From assembly GCF_017815135.1 (NCBI RefSeq), contig NZ_JAGJCF010000016.1:1-64000 (forward strand): DNA of 64,000 bases, written 5' to 3'. The stretch is from Jiella mangrovi (GTDB lineage Bacteria; Pseudomonadota; Alphaproteobacteria; Rhizobiales; Rhizobiaceae). The notes beneath the pieces were generated by a model that worked only from the letters and a program-made list of their open reading frames with translations, was not told the DNA's origin and did not search any database. Positions 1 through 10,117 of this stretch are shown here, piece after piece; position 1 is the first letter of the stretch, and every line of letters starts with the position of its first letter. A program made the translations under genes and the position numbers.

Positions 1-111
1 GCCGAGCGAACGGTCGACGGACTATGGGATGCTGTCGGAGCCGTCCTCCCGCTCTTCAAACCCGACGAGTGCGCCAACTACTTCGCCGCCGCCGGCTATG
101 AACCGGATTAA
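1..111 (+). CDS. IS630-family transposase, C-terminal end (partial)
   Basis: The window opens inside this reading frame, which stays open for 36 codons and ends at TAA 109-111. The residues read roughly TVDGLWDAVGAVLPLFKPDE followed by CANYFAAAGYEPD. That ending, with the ECANYF-AAAGY block, is the usual C-terminus of IS630-type DDE transposases of alphaproteobacteria. Only the tail is present, so neither the catalytic triad nor the left end of the element can be judged. The stop codon shares the tetranucleotide TTAA with the stop of the SIR2 gene on the other strand. The element's right inverted repeat should lie just beyond the stop, inside the end of that gene, but I could not define it. 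Confidence 0.75.
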   Translation, partial: AERTVDGLWDAVGAVLPLFKPDECANYFAAAGYEPD

Positions 112-3100
112 GCCGGATGCGCTCTAGGTTGCCCGGTCTCAGTATCAGGTGCGGCCCAACCGACCAACAACATGCCAGCCAGAACTTGTTCATGTGCTCG
201 CTTGGATATTGTGTTGGTGGTCGCGATGCGCATGAGCGCACCCTTCAATTTTCTGTATAGGGCTGGTGGCGGAATTTTTGCAGCCCAAAACAATCCTGCC
301 CAAGCCGCATCTCTATCGTCTCCGCTATCACTTCGTAAGACTGGCGAAAGATTCGTCTCCGTCCATTCGAGAGCAACGAAGTTTAACCACACGAGGTTGT
401 GGCAGAATATGACAAGGGCGTGGCACCTCGGCTCGCCCCCCAAGGCAAGAAGAGCATTGGCGTGTTTCAGCCAGTTTTCCGGCAGCCCTTGCCCTTTGCC
501 CACCCCGTTCGTCGATGGAGTATTGAAGAGGGCCTGTGCGATCTTTCCAGTGGGCGCATTTAGCGCCTCGGTTGCCCAATCGTGATCGCCAGTTCCCCGG
601 ATAATCGCAGAATTGCCGGAGGTAGGGTCGGCACGAATGATATCCGCAATTCTACCAACGACCTCGAAGAATAATGTCTCATCGCGCTGCGAAAGAGCCG
701 TGGACACGTTTACGGCCCACTCTGACAAGGGGTAGATCAGCCCTGAAACGTCCTTCAGCGGATAAGATAGAAGTCGTCTGGCAGTAAGCAGCACGAACCT
801 CGAGCTATCACTCTTGCGAGTCTCCGCCGTGAGGAATGTGCGCCACGCCCATTCAGGGTATTCCCCATTCTTTGCAGCGAGATGCAAGGCTGCCAGTGCT
901 CTAACGGGCTTTTCTTCCACTAATCCGGAGAAAGGCGACCTTTCCACAAACTCTTCGCTCCGCCCGCTGAGCTCTTTAGCCTTTGCCAAGATGGCGGACA
1001 GAGGAACTGAGACCAAGCCGGACGTGTCTTTTTCTGTTCGAACCCAGCCAACTCGGCCCTCTAATGATGCAGCTGCCGACGCGGAGTATTCAGGTTTCCA
1101 CTTGGGAGCGCGACGTTGAAGTTCCTCACTAAGCTTCGCCAGATCAACCCTAAGACTGCAACCTTGGTCTTCTAGCCAATGTACCCGATTGAGGACGGCG
1201 AATGCCGACCTTTCTATAAATTTCCGTTCCTCTTCATCCTTCCAGCGATCAGGTCCGGCAACGATTCTTTCCTCAATGCGCTGCTGTACCGTTTCGCTAA
1301 GTTCATTCCACCGACGTTTCAGTGACAGAAGCAAGTCCCGTTGGTCACGAGAGCCCCAGAACGCCTCATCGGGCAGAAGTCCGGCCTGTCGTAAAAAATC
1401 GTCCACAGGAACTAGCGTATTGTTCCCCATCGCCCATATTCGCAGACGATTGAAAACCGGATCGTCTGAACCCCACGCGCTGACTTCAAATTTGGCTGCT
1501 TGAGGATTGATTTCCGCTAACCGCTGCAAGAGAGCGGCATACTCGATTATATGAGAGCCAAGTCCGTGGTTGCGCTCGTATTGATCGTCGCCAACGTTGT
1601 CGTCCGCCACGATGGGGCAAATAGCCATCAAGCCGTAGCCCCCGATTTCCTTTTCCAGAAGAACTGCCACCTCTAGATTCCGGCTCAGGGCCCTTACCGT
1701 TTGTGCTAACCACTCGTCCGGAATTTCGATTTGCACGTGCTTTTCTGGATATTTTACATCCATCTGCGCAAGATCACCGACCTGCAAATCGGCCCCCGAA
1801 CTCGGCGGCTTTGGTCCTCCCCAATAGTTACTTTGGGATTCGAAATACGGCTGTCGAATAGATGAGTACTGTCTAACTGCGGCGGAATCCCATCCGTCCT
1901 TCGTTATCTGCGCCTCGAGTTCAAAGATATCTCGATGAAATTCGCCCCGATATGAATCCCAACTTTCGAAAAGATACCTCCAGGCCTTACGGATTTCCGG
2001 CTTCGAAGGTTGCGAAGCACTTTCCAACTGGCTCCTGATGCGGTCCCGTATGTCGGGATGAAGCGCAAATTGATGCGCCGCCCACCAAACGCTAGCGGCT
2101 TGGTTAGACACTCGCGTCAACCAATGGCTCAACACGGAAATGCGGGGCACCAATCGCGGTGCGTTTCTCGACCAGTGTCCACGCAGCGCCGGAAAATTAT
2201 CGTCTCTGAGCGCCTGACGATCTATGCGGTTTAGTGCGAATGCATCCCACGAACCACTTGGCACTTCTCGTCTTACGTTGTGCTCGTCGGGCTCGGGCTT
2301 GTCCGGAACAGAGTCGGAGTCCAACCCGTAAAGGTCGAAAGGATCGACGTATTCGCCCTTCTCTACAAAAGTTCCCAAATGCCCCGGTCTTGCATAGCGG
2401 CGATATGGATCAAAAACGCAAAGCCATTCCGCAGGAGGCGGGATTTCCTCTTCTGCAAAGCGTTTCGCACCTTCGTATGATGACACGACGTGTGCCACCT
2501 GCCCGCGCTCATGCGGAGCTAGAGCCTCAGGCCCTTGTTGCGACATGCGAATAACGTCTCGATGCCAGCCATCCACATCTCTGGCTCTTGCAGACCAAGC
2601 TTCCAATGTCCGCCAAAGCGCTGCATGACCATCAGAGTCATCGTAGGCGATAGCCTCCACTCCTTTGTGGCGCCATCGCGCCGCCGCGTCGGCCTCACCA
2701 CCGGACTGTAAAGCGTACACATAATCCAGCCGACCGGGAACTTTGTTCAGTGCTTCAAGTAGATATTGGACAGGGGGATCGTCGGCTGCATAACCGACAA
2801 AAACGACCACAAACCGCGCCAAAATGGATCGGAAGAACTCCGTCGCCCATCCGTCCGCGAGGTAAGCTCGCCCGAATTCCGAACTCGAGAGAACGAAGCC
2901 GTCACCCTCGGCGCCATCGTATGCTTCGGTGGCACGACCGTGGAGATACACAATTCCGTTTAGCTCACCTGCTCGTCGCGGATCGGGAAGTCGCGGCGGC
3001 TGCCAAGTCTGAAGATTGCGGCCACATTCATCAAACAATCGGTCAAAGTTGGTTGTGACGAGGCGAACCACGCCGTCGGTACTTGTTGCTAAGTCCAGCA

Positions 3101-3458
3101 AGACGCGGTGGGCGCTTAAGTCACAGGGTCTGCGTGGCTTCAGCGCGGATGCTACTGCCGCCTCTATATCTCGGGCAACGAATTCACGTTCCAAGAAGCC
3201 AAAGACACGATCAGCGGATATCACTCCGGCCACACCAACACGGTCATCGATCTCGCGTGCCTCTTCCACCAGTCGGCACGCAGGGCTGTCTTTAGGCACG
3301 CCCAGTGAAGTGATTACCTCTTCCGCAAGGCCGAAGAAGTCAGGAAGCTGCGCTCTAGCCCTAGAAACCCCTGCACCACAAAAGAATACGACGCGCCCCT
3401 GATCGCGTGCCCAAAGCAACTCATCAGGGATTGATGGCCCGTCTTTTATGAACCTCAC
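108..3458 (-). CDS. SIR2-domain protein, DUF4020-like C-terminus (defence-type sirtuin candidate)
   Basis: Large protein of about 1116 residues with an N-terminal SIR2_2-type NAD-binding domain. Counting from an upstream GTG at 3497 the motifs are GAGVS (41-45), TTNFD (148-152), YLHGR (184-188) and GYAADDPP (235-242). The remaining 850 residues are helical with no second catalytic motif that I recognise; the end resembles the DUF4020 region often joined to SIR2_2. I start it at GTG 3458, giving a protein beginning (M)RFIKDGPSIPDELL, because AAGGGGG lies about six bases upstream; the GTG at 3497 has no such site. Known defence sirtuins (DSR1/DSR2, ThsA) deplete NAD on phage infection; that role is inferred here. 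Base composition is less GC-rich than uvrB. The last codons (108 to about 150) may be DNA of the IS630 element, so the native C-terminus could be altered. Confidence 0.8.
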   Translation of the reverse strand: MRFIKDGPSIPDELLWARDQGRVVFFCGAGVSRARAQLPDFFGLAEEVITSLGVPKDSPACRLVEEAREIDDRVGVAGVISADRVFGFLEREFVARDIEAAVASALKPRRPCDLSAHRVLLDLATSTDGVVRLVTTNFDRLFDECGRNLQTWQPPRLPDPRRAGELNGIVYLHGRATEAYDGAEGDGFVLSSSEFGRAYLADGWATEFFRSILARFVVVFVGYAADDPPVQYLLEALNKVPGRLDYVYALQSGGEADAAARWRHKGVEAIAYDDSDGHAALWRTLEAWSARARDVDGWHRDVIRMSQQGPEALAPHERGQVAHVVSSYEGAKRFAEEEIPPPAEWLCVFDPYRRYARPGHLGTFVEKGEYVDPFDLYGLDSDSVPDKPEPDEHNVRREVPSGSWDAFALNRIDRQALRDDNFPALRGHWSRNAPRLVPRISVLSHWLTRVSNQAASVWWAAHQFALHPDIRDRIRSQLESASQPSKPEIRKAWRYLFESWDSYRGEFHRDIFELEAQITKDGWDSAAVRQYSSIRQPYFESQSNYWGGPKPPSSGADLQVGDLAQMDVKYPEKHVQIEIPDEWLAQTVRALSRNLEVAVLLEKEIGGYGLMAICPIVADDNVGDDQYERNHGLGSHIIEYAALLQRLAEINPQAAKFEVSAWGSDDPVFNRLRIWAMGNNTLVPVDDFLRQAGLLPDEAFWGSRDQRDLLLSLKRRWNELSETVQQRIEERIVAGPDRWKDEEERKFIERSAFAVLNRVHWLEDQGCSLRVDLAKLSEELQRRAPKWKPEYSASAAASLEGRVGWVRTEKDTSGLVSVPLSAILAKAKELSGRSEEFVERSPFSGLVEEKPVRALAALHLAAKNGEYPEWAWRTFLTAETRKSDSSRFVLLTARRLLSYPLKDVSGLIYPLSEWAVNVSTALSQRDETLFFEVVGRIADIIRADPTSGNSAIIRGTGDHDWATEALNAPTGKIAQALFNTPSTNGVGKGQGLPENWLKHANALLALGGEPRCHALVIFCHNLVWLNFVALEWTETNLSPVLRSDSGDDRDAAWAGLFWAAKIPPPALYRKLKGALMRIATTNTISKRAHEQVLAGMLLVGWAAPDTETGQPRAHPA

Positions 3459-3761
3459 GTGCGCCCCCTTATGCGCGAAAATAATAGAACCCGACACGTA
3501 GGGGTCAGACTACAACATTTGTGAGTTGCGTCACCATGCAGCCTCACCTTGCGTCGGGGCGTGACGCTTGGGCGCAGGAGTCAAATGACCCTTTTGGCAT
3601 GCGCAATGGCCCCTGCTTGGTCACCCGTGATGTCCGCTTTCAGGCATTGGTAAGGTGAACCTTGACGGCTGAGATGGGCGCAAACCCACCGTCGCCTTCC
3701 ACAACCAAACACCCCAGCCACCACCTTCCCTCCCCGCCGGCTGATCTCTATATGTTCCGGC
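3459..3761. other. Divergent intergenic region between SIR2 gene and uvrB
   Basis: About 300 bases hold the promoters of two divergent genes. The side near the SIR2 gene is relatively AT-rich, including an ATTATTTTCGCGCATAAGG stretch just before its start on the minus strand. No convincing SOS (LexA) box of the GTTC-N7-GTTC type was seen in front of uvrB, and I could not place -35/-10 boxes with confidence. Confidence 0.4.
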
Positions 3762-6700
3762 ATGGCTTCCAGACCCCGCAAATCCCCCCGCCGCCCCGAG
3801 TCCTCTGACTCGGCGCCCGATGAACCGGCCTTCGATCCGTCCGCGCCGGCGCGGCGCGGGCCGTTGCAGGATTTTTCGGAGGCCTCGACGCGCGCCGACG
3901 ATGCCGGCGAACGGCAGGGGTTCGGCGAGGCGCCGCAGGCGTCCTTCGACGCTGGCGAAGCCTATGCCGGCTCGATCTCCGGTTGGGCCGAGGAGATCGC
4001 CCGGGCGACCGAGACCACGGCGGAACGGGCGGCCGATGCCGGCGTCGATCCGGGCAAGGCAGCGGCTGCCAAGCCGAAGACCGCGCGCGGGCCCAAGGCG
4101 AAAGCCGAGCAGAAACCCGGCAAGACCTCCCGTGGCACCTCCATGGGCGGCACCTCCGACCCGAAGCAGCGCGCTGCCGCCGGGCTCAATCCTGTCGCCG
4201 GCATGGATGTCAGCCTGGAGGATGCCAAGTCGCTGCCCGAAGGCGGCGTCACCGCGACGGTCGAGGCGCTCACCAAGCTGATCTCCGAGGGCAACCCGCT
4301 GATCAAGAACGGCGAGGTCTGGCTGCCGCACCGGCCGGCCCGGCCGGACAAGTCGGAAGGCGGCGTGCCCTTCCGCATCGCCTCGGACTACACGCCCATG
4401 GGCGACCAGCCGACCGCCATCGCCGATCTCGTCTCGGGCATTGCCGATCACGACAAGACCCAGGTCCTCCTCGGCGTCACCGGTTCGGGCAAGACCTTCA
4501 CAGTCGCCAACGTCATCGAGCGCACCCAGCGCCCGGCGCTGATCCTCGCGCCGAACAAGACGCTGGCGGCCCAGCTCTATGGCGAGTTCAAGTCCTTCTT
4601 CCCCGACAACGCCGTCGAGTATTTCGTCTCCTATTACGACTACTACCAGCCCGAGGCCTACGTCCCGCGCTCCGACACCTTCATCGAGAAGGAATCCTCG
4701 ATCAACGAGCAGATCGACCGGATGCGCCACGCCGCCACCCGCGCTCTGCTCGAGCGCGACGACGTCATCATCGTCGCCTCGGTCTCCTGCATCTATGGTA
4801 TTGGCTCGGTCGAAACCTACACGGCGATGACGTTTCAGATGAGCATCGGCGACCGGCTCGACCAGCGCCAGCTCCTCGCCGATCTCGTCGCCCAGCAATA
4901 CAAGCGCCGCGACATGGATTTTCAGCGCGGCAGTTTCAGGGTCAGGGGCGACACGATCGAGATCTTCCCCGCCCACCTTGAGGATCGCGCCTGGCGCATC
5001 TCCCTCTTCGGCGACGAGATCGAGGCGATCCAGGAGTTCGATCCCCTCACCGGCTCCAAGACCGACGACCTGAAGTCGGTGAAGATCTACGCCAACTCGC
5101 ACTACGTCACCCCCCGCCCGACCCTCAATCAGGCGGTCAAGCAGATCAAGGAAGAGCTCAAGCATCGCCTCGTCGAACTGGAAAAGGCCGGCCGCCTGCT
5201 CGAGGCCCAGCGGCTCGAACAGCGCACCCGCTTCGACATCGAGATGATCGAGGCCACCGGCTCTTGTGCCGGCATCGAGAACTATTCGCGCTATCTCACC
5301 GGCCGCCAGCCCGGCCACCCGCCGCCGACCTTGTTTGAATATCTCCCCGACAACGCGCTGGTCTTCATCGACGAGAGCCACGTCACCGTGCCGCAGATCG
5401 GCGCCATGTATCGCGGCGACTTCCGGCGCAAGGCGACGCTGGCCGAATACGGCTTTCGCCTGCCCTCCTGCATGGACAACCGGCCGCTGCGCTTCGAGGA
5501 ATGGGACGCCATGCGCCCGCAGACCGTGGCGGTCTCGGCCACGCCCTCGACCTGGGAGCTCGAAGAATCCGGCGGCGTCTTCGCCGAACAGGTGATCCGC
5601 CCCACCGGCCTCACCGACCCGCCCGTCGAGGTGCGCCCCGCCCGCTCGCAGGTCGACGACCTCCTCGGCGAGATCCGCGAGACCGTCGACAAGGGCTACC
5701 GCGTCCTCTGCACGGTCTTGACCAAGCGCATGGCCGAGGACCTCACCGAATATCTGCACGAGCAGGGCATTCGGGTCAGGTACATGCATTCCGACATCGA
5801 CACGCTGGAGCGCATCGAGATCATCCGTGATCTGCGCCTCGGCGCCTTCGACGTGCTGGTCGGCATCAACCTGTTGCGCGAGGGCCTCGACATCCCCGAA
5901 TGCGGCCTCGTCGCCATTCTCGACGCCGACAAGGAAGGGTTTTTGCGCTCCGAAACCTCCCTCGTGCAGACGATCGGCCGCGCCGCACGCAATGTCGACG
6001 GCAAGGTCATCCTCTATGCCGACCAGGTCACCGGCTCGATGGAACGGGCGATGGCCGAGACCACCCGCCGCCGCGAAAAGCAGGAGGCCTACAACGCCGA
6101 ACACGGCATCACGCCGGCGAGCGTCAAGGCCAAGATCGCCGACATTCTCGACAGCTACTACGAAAAGGACCACGTCCGCGTCGACGTCGGGCCGAACGCC
6201 AGGGAAGGCGAGCTCGTCGGCAACAATCTGCGCGCCCATATCGAGCATCTGGAAAAGCAGATGCGCGAGGCGGCCGCCGACCTGGATTTCGAAAAAGCGG
6301 CCCGCCTTCGGGATGAGATCAAGAAACTCAATGCCAAGGAACTGGAATTCGGCGGCAACGTCTCCCTCGACGCCGTCGCCGACGCTGGCGCCTCAAAACT
6401 GAGCCCTCATCCTGAGGCGGCCGGAACGGCCCTCGAAGGACGAGGGCGCGGCGGAAACGGCGGCGGGACATCCCCTCGCCCTTCGAGGCGCGCTTCGCGC
6501 GCACCTCAGGATGAGGGGATGACTGACGCCGACCCCCTTGCCGACGCCGTCGCCATGGAGGAATCCGTCATGGGCCCCTCCACCGGCCGCACCAAGCACG
6601 GCAAGAAGGCCAAGCGCGACCGCGCCCCGCAAGGCGACGAACGCTTCGGCCCCCGCGGCGAGGTCCTCAAGGCCCCCGGCTCCGGCACAGTCGCTGCCCC

Positions 6701-7061
6701 CGCCTCGCTGTTCCGCAAGCCGTCCTTGGATGACATGGGCCCCGGCACAGACACGGCGGTCCCCGACCGCCCGTCCCTGTTCCGCAAGAACACCCTCGAC
6801 GAAATGACCGTCGGCCGCACCGAAAAGCCCACCGGCAAGGCAAAACCAGAAAAGCCGGCGCCCTCAAAACAGCCGATCTCCCCCCCGGCGGGGGAGATGT
6901 CCGGCAGGACAGAGGGGGGCGCGCCGGGCTCGACGTCACAGGCAAGGGACGACTCCCCCGCCCCCATCCGCCGCGAACGCGTCGGCCGCGGCTCCTACGA
7001 GGACCCCGGCGACCAGAAGCGAAAGCGGCGGCCTTCGAAGACCGGGCGGCCGGGGCGGTAA
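3762..7061 (+). CDS. uvrB: Excinuclease ABC subunit B (UvrB) with long N- and C-terminal extensions
   Basis: Helicase-like damage-verification subunit of UvrABC nucleotide excision repair. Of 1099 residues, the conserved core starts near residue 205 ([15 protein letters not shown]). It has Walker A GVTGSGKT (about 238-245), the beta-hairpin region [20 protein letters not shown] (about 291 on), the DESH box near 537, the helicase motifs GLDIPE and IGRAARN, and a UVR motif near 824-857 ([20 protein letters not shown]). UvrB is usually about 670-700 residues. The first 200 residues are charged and low-complexity, a tail type seen in Rhizobiales. The C-terminal 240 residues are disordered-looking and contain two palindromic repeats translated in frame (6404-6517 and 6875-6919). 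The tail repeats an SLFRK-type motif ([26 protein letters not shown]). Start ATG 3762 gives the typical [11 protein letters not shown] opening. Confidence 0.95.
6404..6517. repeat. Palindromic repeat translated inside uvrB
   Basis: Outer arms CCCTCATCCTGAGG (6404-6417) and CCTCAGGATGAGGG (6504-6517) are exact reverse complements. The interior carries further GAAGG/CGAGGG-type arms. This is the style of Rhizobiales intergenic palindromes, yet here it encodes about 38 residues of UvrB after the UVR domain without breaking the frame. Confidence 0.8.
6875..6919 (+). repeat. GATCTCCCCC-type palindromic repeat (family A) translated inside uvrB
   Basis: Same element as six other copies in the window: a GATCTCCCCC / GGGGGAGATG hairpin, then a conserved CCGGCAGG-ACAGAGGGGGG tail. 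In uvrB it is read as [16 protein letters not shown]. This is the only solitary copy seen; the other six lie in inverted pairs. Confidence 0.85.
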
Positions 7062-7848
7062 GGCCGCAAACACGGGCGCCCCTCTCTCCCCCTTGTGGGA
7101 GAGAAAGCCATTCCAAGGCGTTGGGCCGAGCGAAGCGAGGTCCAAACCTTGAGAATGGCAAGAGAGGGGTCTCACCGCGTCAATCGCCGCTAACATCGAC
7201 CCGTGACACCGCAACGAGGTCGCCGACGTCGGCAAAACCGGATCCGGTGAAACCCCTCTCTTGCGATTTCTATCACTTGGCTACGCCAAGACGATGAAGT
7301 CGCTTTCTCTCCCACAAGGGGGCAGGGGTATCGCATATGGAAATGCGCAAAGAACTGAGGGGCGAAAATCTGGAGCCATGGAACGCTTTCGCGGGGAAAA
7401 GGAAACTTTCTGCGAGTATCGATTTCGTCCAACGAGCGCCGAATTCGCCATATGCGATAGCCCTGCACAAGGGGGAGAGACGGCGCTCTCGCCCGACGTC
7501 ATGCACACGCCTCCCAACCGGGCGCCCACCCCTCCGCTTCGTCATCCTCGGCCCGCAGCGTCGGGGATGACGAAGCGTTGGTGACGCGCCCCTTCCGAAT
7601 ACCACCCCCTCCGCCGCGAACGCATCGGCCGGGGCGCCTAACAACCCCGGCAACCAGAAGCGCAAGCGCCGCCCGACCAAGGCCGGCCGGCCGGCCGGGG
7701 CGGGGAGGTCGCAAGCACCGGCCAATAGTGTCGCTCCGGCCGAGGCCAAAAGACCCCAATTACCCGCGCATCCTCCGGAGTTTAAAATAGGCCGTCGCAT
7801 CAAGCCAAAGACAGAGGCAACGGCAACGAAAGCAGCACTCCATCACCT
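7062..7848. repeat. uvrB downstream region: mosaic of inverted repeats and a decayed uvrB tail copy
   Basis: No gene supported. Near-matching inverted segments are 7079-7108 against 7301-7330 (CTCTCCC, CTTGTGGGAGAGAAAGC) and about 7151-7170 against 7250-7269 (CAAGAGAGGGGT). Another inverted pair is 7322-7340 and 7448-7466 (around CCATATGCGATA). A perfect 13-bp hairpin lies at 7535-7547 / 7564-7576 (CGCTTCGTCATCC). Bases 7611-7718 match the 3' end of uvrB (6968-7073) at most positions but with a stop and an indel in the matching frame. From about 7790 the composition becomes AT-rich, entering the ATPase island. Confidence 0.6.
7611..7718 (+). pseudogene. Decayed duplicate of the uvrB 3' end
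   Basis: In the frame matching uvrB this reads RRERIGRGA then a stop; one base-phase later it continues NQKRKRRPTKAGRPAGAGRS. The true uvrB end reads [20 protein letters not shown] then [10 protein letters not shown]. The match over about 105 bases covers the last codons and the bases just after the stop. It looks like a remnant left by insertion or duplication at the end of uvrB. Confidence 0.6.
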
Positions 7849-8093
7849 TCATGATTTATCGAATATTGCCATCCTCGAGATACCACGTCGATCGGCGGAA
7901 CTGAATTTTTTCCAAAGAGAACGATGAACCGCCATGCGTTCGTCGAGAAATATCTCTGCATTGCCCCGAAATATCCAGCGTTGCCGATACTCCTTCCGCT
8001 GAACATTTTGCACTTGAAAATCATTACCGACAGCACCCAGCCGATACAAATCAATGATTGCTGCTCTTATAAACTCTTGAGTGAGTATTTTTT
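7849..8093 (-). other. -1 frame C-terminal tail of the P-loop ATPase (frameshift product or frameshift lesion)
   Basis: From the A8 run (8088-8095 on the plus strand as T8) the -1 frame reads KKILTQEFIRAAIDLYRLGA then VGNDFQVQNVQRKEYRQRWI and on to FDKS and TGA 7849-7851, about 78 residues. The DLYRLGAVGN and MAVHRSLWKKF segments look like the usual end of this ATPase class. Zero-frame codons at the run are CAA AAA AAA TAC, so the canonical heptamer A_AAA_AAA is in phase for a -1 slip onto ATA CTC ACT. No strong hairpin downstream was recognised. A simple one-base deletion (A9 to A8) or a sequencing error would give the same picture. Confidence 0.65.
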
Positions 8094-9455
8094 TTGAGCG
8101 GCACTGGAGATTTTCGACTTCGCTCTGTAGAAAAGTTCTTCCAAGAAAAAATACGAATAAAAACCGAGAAAAAGCGACTCTATTGCTCTAGCTTCCTCGA
8201 TTGTATATGTTGTAATCAATTCGTCAAAAACCTCTTCCCAGATACCATTTGAGTACGACAATGATGTCTCATCGAATGACGCCTGAGAAAACGATGTTGC
8301 CGCCGGCCTAAAATCGCGGGCTACTGACAGACGCCTCACAATATCTCTCGGGCGAAACAAAGAATTGTATAGTAAGAATTGTTTGATCGGTAAATCTCCG
8401 ATTTTTTCTGGAAAATACACACTCCACACATCACCTTGAAGTGGCACTCCCATTTTCTCTTCGTATGAATTTCGTATCTTCCTTTCGACAATATCTAGAA
8501 GCGGATGAGCATCGCTATTCATACCCTCGTCCCAATTAATTCGAAAACCTAGGTCCTGCACATCCCGCGTGACCTCTTGACCAATTTCAGAAACAGAGTG
8601 CAAGACCTCAGAACGGACGGCCGAAATAAAGAAGAAACTTGAGCTGTACTCTGACAATTTTTGGTTGAAATTCGTCAAGGCGAATATAAGGTCCCGAACC
8701 ATTCTACGATCTCGGTCGAACTGATCGGATTTATTGAAAAAAATTTCAAGCTCGTCGAATATTATATAGACCTTTTTTGGAATTCCAGGTATTGCGAGTA
8801 GCAATTCATCGAGATCATTGACGATGTCAGAAAATGAATTATACGTTCGATCGCCCTTACCCGCAACGCCTATGTTCAGAGATGCCGTGAGCTTCTCTAA
8901 ATTTAGCTTAAGATCTATCGATCCGTTGACGGTAAACGGAAGTATCTTTGTGATTTTCTGCCACCAGGTATCCGATTCACTCGCAAATACACTCACATAG
9001 TTGGCGACTGATTCCGGTACATCGCCCTCATCATAAATACCCTTGACGAGAAACGCAATCGTCTTGTGAATGTATATCATCCAAAACTGCTTGAAATCTT
9101 GCTCAAAGGCAAGACTTCGAGAGTTATCCCTTTCAACAATTGAAAAGCCTGCGATTTTTGAAAGTCCGCTACGCTCTTCCTCCGTAATGTTCGACTTGAA
9201 TAATACCATATGGGTTACGCAACGCGGATCAGAATCCAGCTGTTCTTTTATAAATCTCAGGAGCGCAGTCTTACCTGTTCCCTTGTTTCCGGCGACAAAC
9301 ACGGTCGATCCGCCCAGTATTTGTCCGATATCAAGAGCCGGAGGCATCACGAATGAATTGAAAAAGACACTTGATCCTATCTTGTTCTGCTTGATTATTT
9401 CATTTTTTGCATCAAGATCTCCAAACCGCATATCTGACAAATTGAATGTTTTCAT
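8067..9455 (-). CDS. P-loop ATPase, Sll1717/KAP-like, zero-frame product
   Basis: Protein of 462 residues with Walker A GNKGTGKT (56-63) and Walker B VYIIFDELE (229-237). The N-terminal MRFGDLDAKNE block is typical of stand-alone P-loop ATPases of the Sll1717 type that occur in defence and mobile regions. No transmembrane segment is evident. The gene is strikingly AT-rich against its surroundings and uses AT-rich codons, so it was probably acquired by transfer. ATG 9455 is preceded by AGAGGCAGTGAG. The frame ends at TAA 8067 only six codons after an A_AAA_AAA slippery heptamer. A conserved-looking C-terminal tail continues in the -1 frame to 7849, so the full product is probably about 534 residues. 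Function is unknown; nucleotide-driven sensing or defence is an inference. Confidence 0.75.
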   Translation of the reverse strand: MKTFNLSDMRFGDLDAKNEIIKQNKIGSSVFFNSFVMPPALDIGQILGGSTVFVAGNKGTGKTALLRFIKEQLDSDPRCVTHMVLFKSNITEEERSGLSKIAGFSIVERDNSRSLAFEQDFKQFWMIYIHKTIAFLVKGIYDEGDVPESVANYVSVFASESDTWWQKITKILPFTVNGSIDLKLNLEKLTASLNIGVAGKGDRTYNSFSDIVNDLDELLLAIPGIPKKVYIIFDELEIFFNKSDQFDRDRRMVRDLIFALTNFNQKLSEYSSSFFFISAVRSEVLHSVSEIGQEVTRDVQDLGFRINWDEGMNSDAHPLLDIVERKIRNSYEEKMGVPLQGDVWSVYFPEKIGDLPIKQFLLYNSLFRPRDIVRRLSVARDFRPAATSFSQASFDETSLSYSNGIWEEVFDELITTYTIEEARAIESLFLGFYSYFFLEELFYRAKSKISSAAQKKYSLKSL

Positions 9456-10117
9456 CTCACTGCCTCTAAGGTGTCCTCGTAGCCTCCGTCATAGCGCCGC
9501 CCGGCATGTATGGCAATGTAAGGTGGTGCTGAACTTCTCTGCACGTAGGATACGCCTCGGAAGCCAAAGACGACGCGCACGCGTTGGGCGCTGCACCGCA
9601 ACTCGGCAAAACCACGCTCTTGCGATTTTTATCATTTTGTCTCCCCTGAGGGAGAAAGAACGCTTCGTCCTTCCCCCGCCAATATCTCCCTCCCCATTGC
9701 CTACCAACCCCCTGATTCCCCTCACACTCCCCAAAAATCTTATCCCCACCCCCTCACCCTTCCCCCATACTCCCCCCATCGCCGGTCTACCCGACACCAG
9801 TCGACGGGAACCGGGCACGGGCGCTCGCCGGCAGCGTTCGCGGGCTGGCGACGCGGTCTTGGCGCTGTTCGCCCTTCCGGAGGGCGGGCGTCCCGGACCG
9901 CCTCCCGGTGCCGCTTCCTGAGCCTTTCGAAGGGTGCTCGCGTCATACGGCGCCGGTGCGGATCGGTCCGCTTGGGGTCGCCGCGCTGAAAAGGCGCGGC
10001 GGGTGAAGCGCCGGCCGGCGCCTGAACCCTTCGATCAGGTAGGCGACTGTCCCTTGGGAGGCAGACAAAAGCCGCGCAGCGCCCCCCAGAGGCGAGCCGG
10101 GCAGCCCTGGCAGTGTC
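9456..10117. other. Intergenic region, about 660 bases, no gene supported
   Basis: Bases about 9595-9665 share scattered blocks (TCGGCAAAACC, CTCTTGCGATTT, TATCA) with the mosaic at 7225-7290, in the same orientation. Related repeat fragments therefore lie on both sides of the AT-rich ATPase island. The rest is C-rich then GC-rich sequence without a plausible frame or recognised RNA. Confidence 0.4.

Follow-up and report, generated by a model that had tools for sequence, protein, structure and literature searches.

A frame break at an A-run in a Sll1717-family ATPase gene beside uvrB of Jiella mangrovi, probably a recent one-base loss

The heptamer A_AAA_AAA is a known site of -1 frameshifting and A-runs longer than 7 are a known site of transcriptional slippage (PMC3711429); in E. 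coli, A_AAA_AAA is much less shift-prone than A_AAA_AAG (PMC5009743). Two described systems come close to the gene analysed here. In dnaX (shift site from PMC5009743), an in-phase A-heptamer is followed soon by a zero-frame stop. In M.HaeIII, the likeness is a frame-shifting indel in an A-run of about eight: indels concentrate in long homopolymers, and those in an 8A repeat were shown experimentally to be bypassed in E. coli, leakily and to an extent sufficient for active enzyme (Rockah-Shmuel et al. 2013, PMC3812077). The GeneTack criteria for recoded genes (Table 1 of PMC3711429) ask for a conserved site and for five or more genes. A literature search found no paper on Sll1717, and among the titles listed none on programmed frameshifting in an anti-phage defence gene.

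The window, the whole stretch of 64,000 nucleotides of J. mangrovi DNA that was analysed, holds a P-loop ATPase gene that runs on the minus strand from 9455 to 7849 and has the following features.

8067..9455, minus strand: zero-frame ORF of 462 aa, a Sll1717-family P-loop ATPase cut before its C-terminus (positions 1-393 of 454 in the NCBIfam profile NF047389, 188.7 bits, E 2.1e-55)
8088..8095, minus strand: A8 run in the codons CAA AAA AAA TAC, the site of the frame break, with A_AAA_AAA at codons 455-456
7849..8088, minus strand: -1 frame tail of 79 codons and a stop, homologous to the family C-terminus (NF047389 positions 405-453 of 454, E 0.0019, 17.4 bits; 30/64 residues identical to residues 443-506 of the Paracoccus protein described below)

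The zero frame ends with a TAA six codons past the A8 run, at 8067, and the -1 frame stays open to 7849. This layout, including the heptamer in phase, agrees with the original prediction, the residue counts of which were off by one (79 instead of about 78 residues for the tail; 535 instead of 534 for the joined product of body and tail). Further decay, in the form of a second stop or shift, was looked for in the gene and none was seen.

The zero-frame body alone reaches the membership score of the Sll1717 family (188.7 bits against a cut-off of 75 for NF047389), and the rest of this profile, up to its end, is matched weakly by the tail. The frame of the window gene is broken between profile positions 393 and 405, and the end of the profile is found only in the -1 frame, not in that of the body. 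A Paracoccus marcusii plasmid gene (CP157_RS19400, WP_217846984.1; locus L006) is homologous over body and tail, and its protein is 37% identical to the joined window product over 523 columns; unlike the window gene, it encodes both parts in a single frame of 513 aa, and no run near the joint reaches six A's. Since body and tail match consecutive parts of NF047389 and the Paracoccus relative holds both in one frame, the tail is, as judged from homology, the normal C-terminus of Sll1717-family ATPases. The earlier impression that it reads like the natural end of such proteins was thus borne out, by the profile match, by the Paracoccus alignment and by nine relatives with open frames (see below). 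Solved structures gave no convincing relative of the ATPase, the best matches being designed TIM barrels (E 4.5e-4).

Relatives were present in 1/10 genomes of the genus, 9/394 of the family, 4/397 of the order, 3/385 of the class and 3/398 of the phylum; these counts include the own genome, the samples overlap, and the pattern-based scans can miss distant relatives. Among plasmids the body was found in 2 records and the tail in 1, genome contigs yielded one relative (L041), and viral contigs and phages yielded none. Weak or partial matches (L004, L005, L008 and L046-L048) were left out of the alignments, as was a plasmid match (H2) covered over 46% at 23% identity. Nine relatives with open frames were examined, of which seven are alignable (L003, L006, L009 and L042-L045) and two more distant (L002 and L007). 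All nine read through the joint in a single frame and keep the C-terminus. Six or more consecutive A's within 15 codons of this joint were found in 0/9, where the longest run has 3 to 5. All nine are distant: over the body, the seven alignable ones share 26-36% identity with the window protein, and the nearest relatives that the searches yielded share about 35-42%. Some 31 codons before the joint L045 has an A7 and L002 an A8, each within an open frame.

These comparisons bear on the possibility that the A8 run serves programmed -1 ribosomal frameshifting or transcriptional slippage, which would yield two ATPases, one short and one long, at a fixed ratio. The in-phase A_AAA_AAA, the stop close behind it and the conserved tail in the right frame are what such a gene would have; the absence of the site from all nine single-frame relatives argues against it, with the reservation that site conservation could be judged among distant homologues only. 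Single-frame homologues combined with a break at an unconserved site are the picture expected of a frameshifted pseudogene, and the one observed here. The Pseudogemmobacter relative L041 (280-1817) is broken at two points: codon 29 reads TAG, and the frame changes to -1 at an A7 (GCA AAA AAA TAT) in a different part of the gene from the break in the window. It is 71-76% identical to the Paracoccus protein and, in pieces, 35-42% identical to the window body and 54% to the window tail. Its A7 break has the same outward form as that of the window gene, an in-phase A_AAA_AAA with a -1 continuation; an alternative account would make it a second slip site, in favour of programming. L041 looks like a pseudogene or a poor contig, and in our reading it demonstrates that such a pattern comes about in the Sll1717 family without programming.

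The heptamer itself is less special than it appears. Of the three phases that an A8 run can take within a frame, two contain an in-phase A_AAA_AAA, and a broken frame stays open in -1 about half the time, so that the coincidence is weaker than it looks. When the synonymous codons of the window gene were shuffled (5000 versions), at least one in-phase A_AAA_AAA was present in 15% and an A8 in 11% of the versions; shuffling the codon order gave A_AAA_AAA in 9%. The phase match is real, as predicted. The zero frame of the window gene contains six in-phase X_XXY_YYZ heptamers. After A_AAA_AAG at codon 227 the -1 frame closes within 8 residues; from T_TTT_TTC at codon 436 it stays open for 98 residues and leads into the same tail, which would favour a programmed shift.

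Long A-runs also occur inside open frames of the same genome and of the same family. A paralogue in the same genome (L002; L034:3639-5207, minus strand) has two A8 runs in an open frame of 523 codons, with A_AAA_AAA at codon 201. L045 has A_AAA_AAA at codon 473 of 578 in an open frame; from there the -1 frame runs for 11 residues. A PAAR-motif gene of the same genome has an A8 in the same phase (GAA AAA AAA TAC) at codon 322 of an open frame of 442 codons, the motif match (129-178) not spanning the run. Because open frames carry A_AAA_AAA too, an in-phase A_AAA_AAA in an AT-rich foreign gene should be regarded with caution, as weak evidence of recoding. In the genome, 26 A-runs reach a length of at least eight (31 matches, counting overlaps). 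Pfam was run on ten ORFs that cross seven of them, leaving out two long ORFs at the other L022 run; three gave a match (PAAR motif, SRP54-type GTPase and peptidoglycan-binding) and the seven without a match were not used as controls. The ORF with the peptidoglycan-binding match (L038:2972-6010, minus strand) has an A10 11 codons before the end of its open frame, and another frame is open for 304 codons beyond the A10, possibly a second homopolymer break. This A10 is counted among the points against reading the window site as a lesion.

No clear stimulator was found for the window heptamer. Five folds around and downstream of the A8 run were weak (z -0.87, -1.56, -1.52, -0.67 and +0.76), without a strong hairpin, and the Shine-Dalgarno-like tetramers GGAG, GAGG, AGGA and AAGG are missing from the 40 bases upstream of the run. 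In contrast to dnaX, the window gene has the less shift-prone A_AAA_AAA, no clear stimulator that could be found and a site that was not found in the relatives examined, and it offers neither the conserved site nor the five or more genes that GeneTack asks for. The proposal of short and long products made as in dnaX is therefore not supported: besides these differences, none of the open relatives examined divides its coding sequence between two frames, open frames elsewhere contain the heptamer as well, and L041 is broken at another A-run and by a nonsense codon. We regard a programmed shift as very improbable. A related proposal, in which the ATPase serves defence and its A8 run is a slip site, leaky or tuned, so that mostly truncated and little full-length, active protein is made, is improbable as well, if not to the same degree. 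Were it true, a tuned slip site would keep a costly immune gene at a low dose, and replication slippage at the A8 run would restore or remove full expression.

The -1 tail has not decayed. Between the window gene and the Paracoccus relative (L006) identity is 0.57 over the tail and 0.36 over the body; the corresponding values between open relatives are 0.69 and 0.53 (L042/L043) and 0.61 and 0.53 (L044/L003). For the window gene the tail is more conserved than the body in comparison with 6/7 relatives and about level with it for L045 (0.25 and 0.26); L002 and L007 were aligned and left out of this comparison. An undecayed tail indicates, as far as the alignments can tell, that the break is recent, or is bypassed, or is an error, and if real the break would be young. 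A frameshift in use would also conserve the tail as well as the body, and this counts against reading the break as a lesion. Another explanation, that selection has kept the 462-aa product as a functional truncation and the tail is a relic, agrees with a P-loop body left whole by loss of the tail alone; it is at odds with the undecayed state of the tail and with its retention in 9/9 open relatives examined, and is the least probable of the readings considered.

An error of sequencing or assembly, with the gene intact in the cell and the run miscounted, would equally leave the tail undecayed. The break is known from a single genome and lies in a homopolymer, and where a frame break stands outside any cluster and is confirmed by BLASTp, the GeneTack authors expect a sequencing error, not an indel mutation (PMC3711429). 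Recognisable genes of this assembly contain three other A8 runs with the frame open, two of them in the paralogue and one in the PAAR-motif gene, and 2/5 sister cargo loci (see below) also hold a broken gene, in neither case at a long A-run; both observations speak against a miscount. We consider such an error unlikely, although it deserves more weight than the other alternatives. Phase variation, in which the length of the A-run would toggle the gene on and off in the population, might be suspected from the position of the break in an A-run and from the break of L041 at another A7. Eight A's are short for known phase-variable runs, near the joint no run of more than five A's occurs in the nine open relatives, and the broken relative L041 also carries a nonsense codon, so that this mechanism has a very small probability, below even that of a programmed shift.

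The loss of one base from the homopolymer, offered in the original prediction as the simpler alternative, fits best. We think it likely that a recent one-base loss occurred in the A-run near the 3' end of a horizontally acquired, defence-like Sll1717 ATPase gene, and that the break is perhaps leakily bypassed. A foreign P-loop ATPase gene would have been acquired horizontally beside uvrB, as a transient resident, and the loss of one base from the A-run would have broken its reading frame recently. Translation by ribosomes would then yield mostly the 462-aa product, which lacks the ~75 C-terminal residues of the family protein, and the truncated ATPase would presumably be impaired. Because indels in an 8A repeat are bypassed in E. 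coli (PMC3812077), some full-length protein may still be made, through low-level slippage of RNA polymerase or ribosomes on the A8 run; unlike the bypass in M.HaeIII this is a possibility only, and it would represent accidental leakiness, not an evolved switch. As found, the window gene matters little, being another frame-broken member of a little-studied ATPase family.

The ATPase gene forms an AT-rich island, with 40-44% GC in most 500-base steps against mostly 60-72% in the region. The segment that carries it is absent from one of the sister species (G002).

7323..9649, no strand assigned: 2.3-kb segment with the ATPase gene, missing from G002; GC content 40-51% between 7751 and 9750, in steps of 500 bases

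In G002 (L065) window positions 7322 and 9650 adjoin, which makes it an empty site; a repeat-like stretch of the absent segment (7612-7714) has a match elsewhere in L065. No RNA family reached its gathering score between 3000 and 13000. The loci downstream of uvrB could be read in 7/9 sisters (G001 is represented only by a short locus, L052, and G004 ends at a contig end). Other AT-rich genes lie beside uvrB in 5/7 of these (G005-G009) and none in G002 and G003.

G005 cargo: ORC-CDC6-like ATPase with sub-threshold similarity to the Sll1717 family, and a transposase-like ORF (named by eye)
G006 cargo: TPR-like protein (weak match)
G007 cargo (L060): NACHT ATPase
G008 cargo: M78 peptidase, Beta protein and cll-like protein
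G009 cargo (L062): PDC-S28 homologue

Two stretches of sister cargo (L066:8850-9521 and the transposase-like ORF of L064) were left out of the scans, and L060:10985-11608 was left out of PADLOC. The right flank, about 9650-10100 of the window (450 bases), is common to 5/7 sister loci, in which it lies between variable stretches; G003 and G009 have a different right-hand neighbour, so that for the G009 cargo only the side towards uvrB is common. A swap spot lies on the 3' side of uvrB, with different AT-rich, defence-like modules in the individual sisters (L059, L060, L062, L064 and L066) and an empty site in L065. Direct matches of the window ATPase to defence families are weak: PADLOC gave only PifA (E 0.021), and NF053860 (DS41_1_antiphage) matched with an E of 9.8e-06 but 24.8 bits against a cut-off of 370. 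Together with the defence-like cargo of the neighbouring loci, these matches are suggestive of a role of the ATPase in defence.

A broken gene is present in 3/6 occupied sites beside uvrB, the window included: the window ATPase, the G007 NACHT ATPase and the G009 PDC-S28 homologue. The G007 gene (L060:8797-11099, minus strand) has an apparent frame change near 9980, not at a long homopolymer, its two frames probably belonging to one gene. The G009 gene (L062:4123-6648, minus strand), a candidate defence gene, has an in-frame TAG at 5170-5172. In the cargo of G005, G006 and G008, loci without an alignment to relatives, no break was seen. With related species carrying different defence-like modules, half of the occupied sites with a broken gene, the uvrB swap spot is the better lead.

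On the other side of uvrB, at 108-3497 of the window (minus strand, 51-59% GC), lies a gene for a SIR2-like protein of 1129 aa that resembles the anti-phage sirtuin Dsr1; it scores 339.7 bits with NF041818, below the cut-off of 1400. The uvrB gene itself (3762-7061, plus strand) contains dispersed-repeat-like stretches at about 6456-6528 and 6849-6938, inside the C-terminal part of its open frame, and a query of 1281 bases (5800-7080) has 84 matches in the own genome, counting the query region, besides many in the sister genomes.
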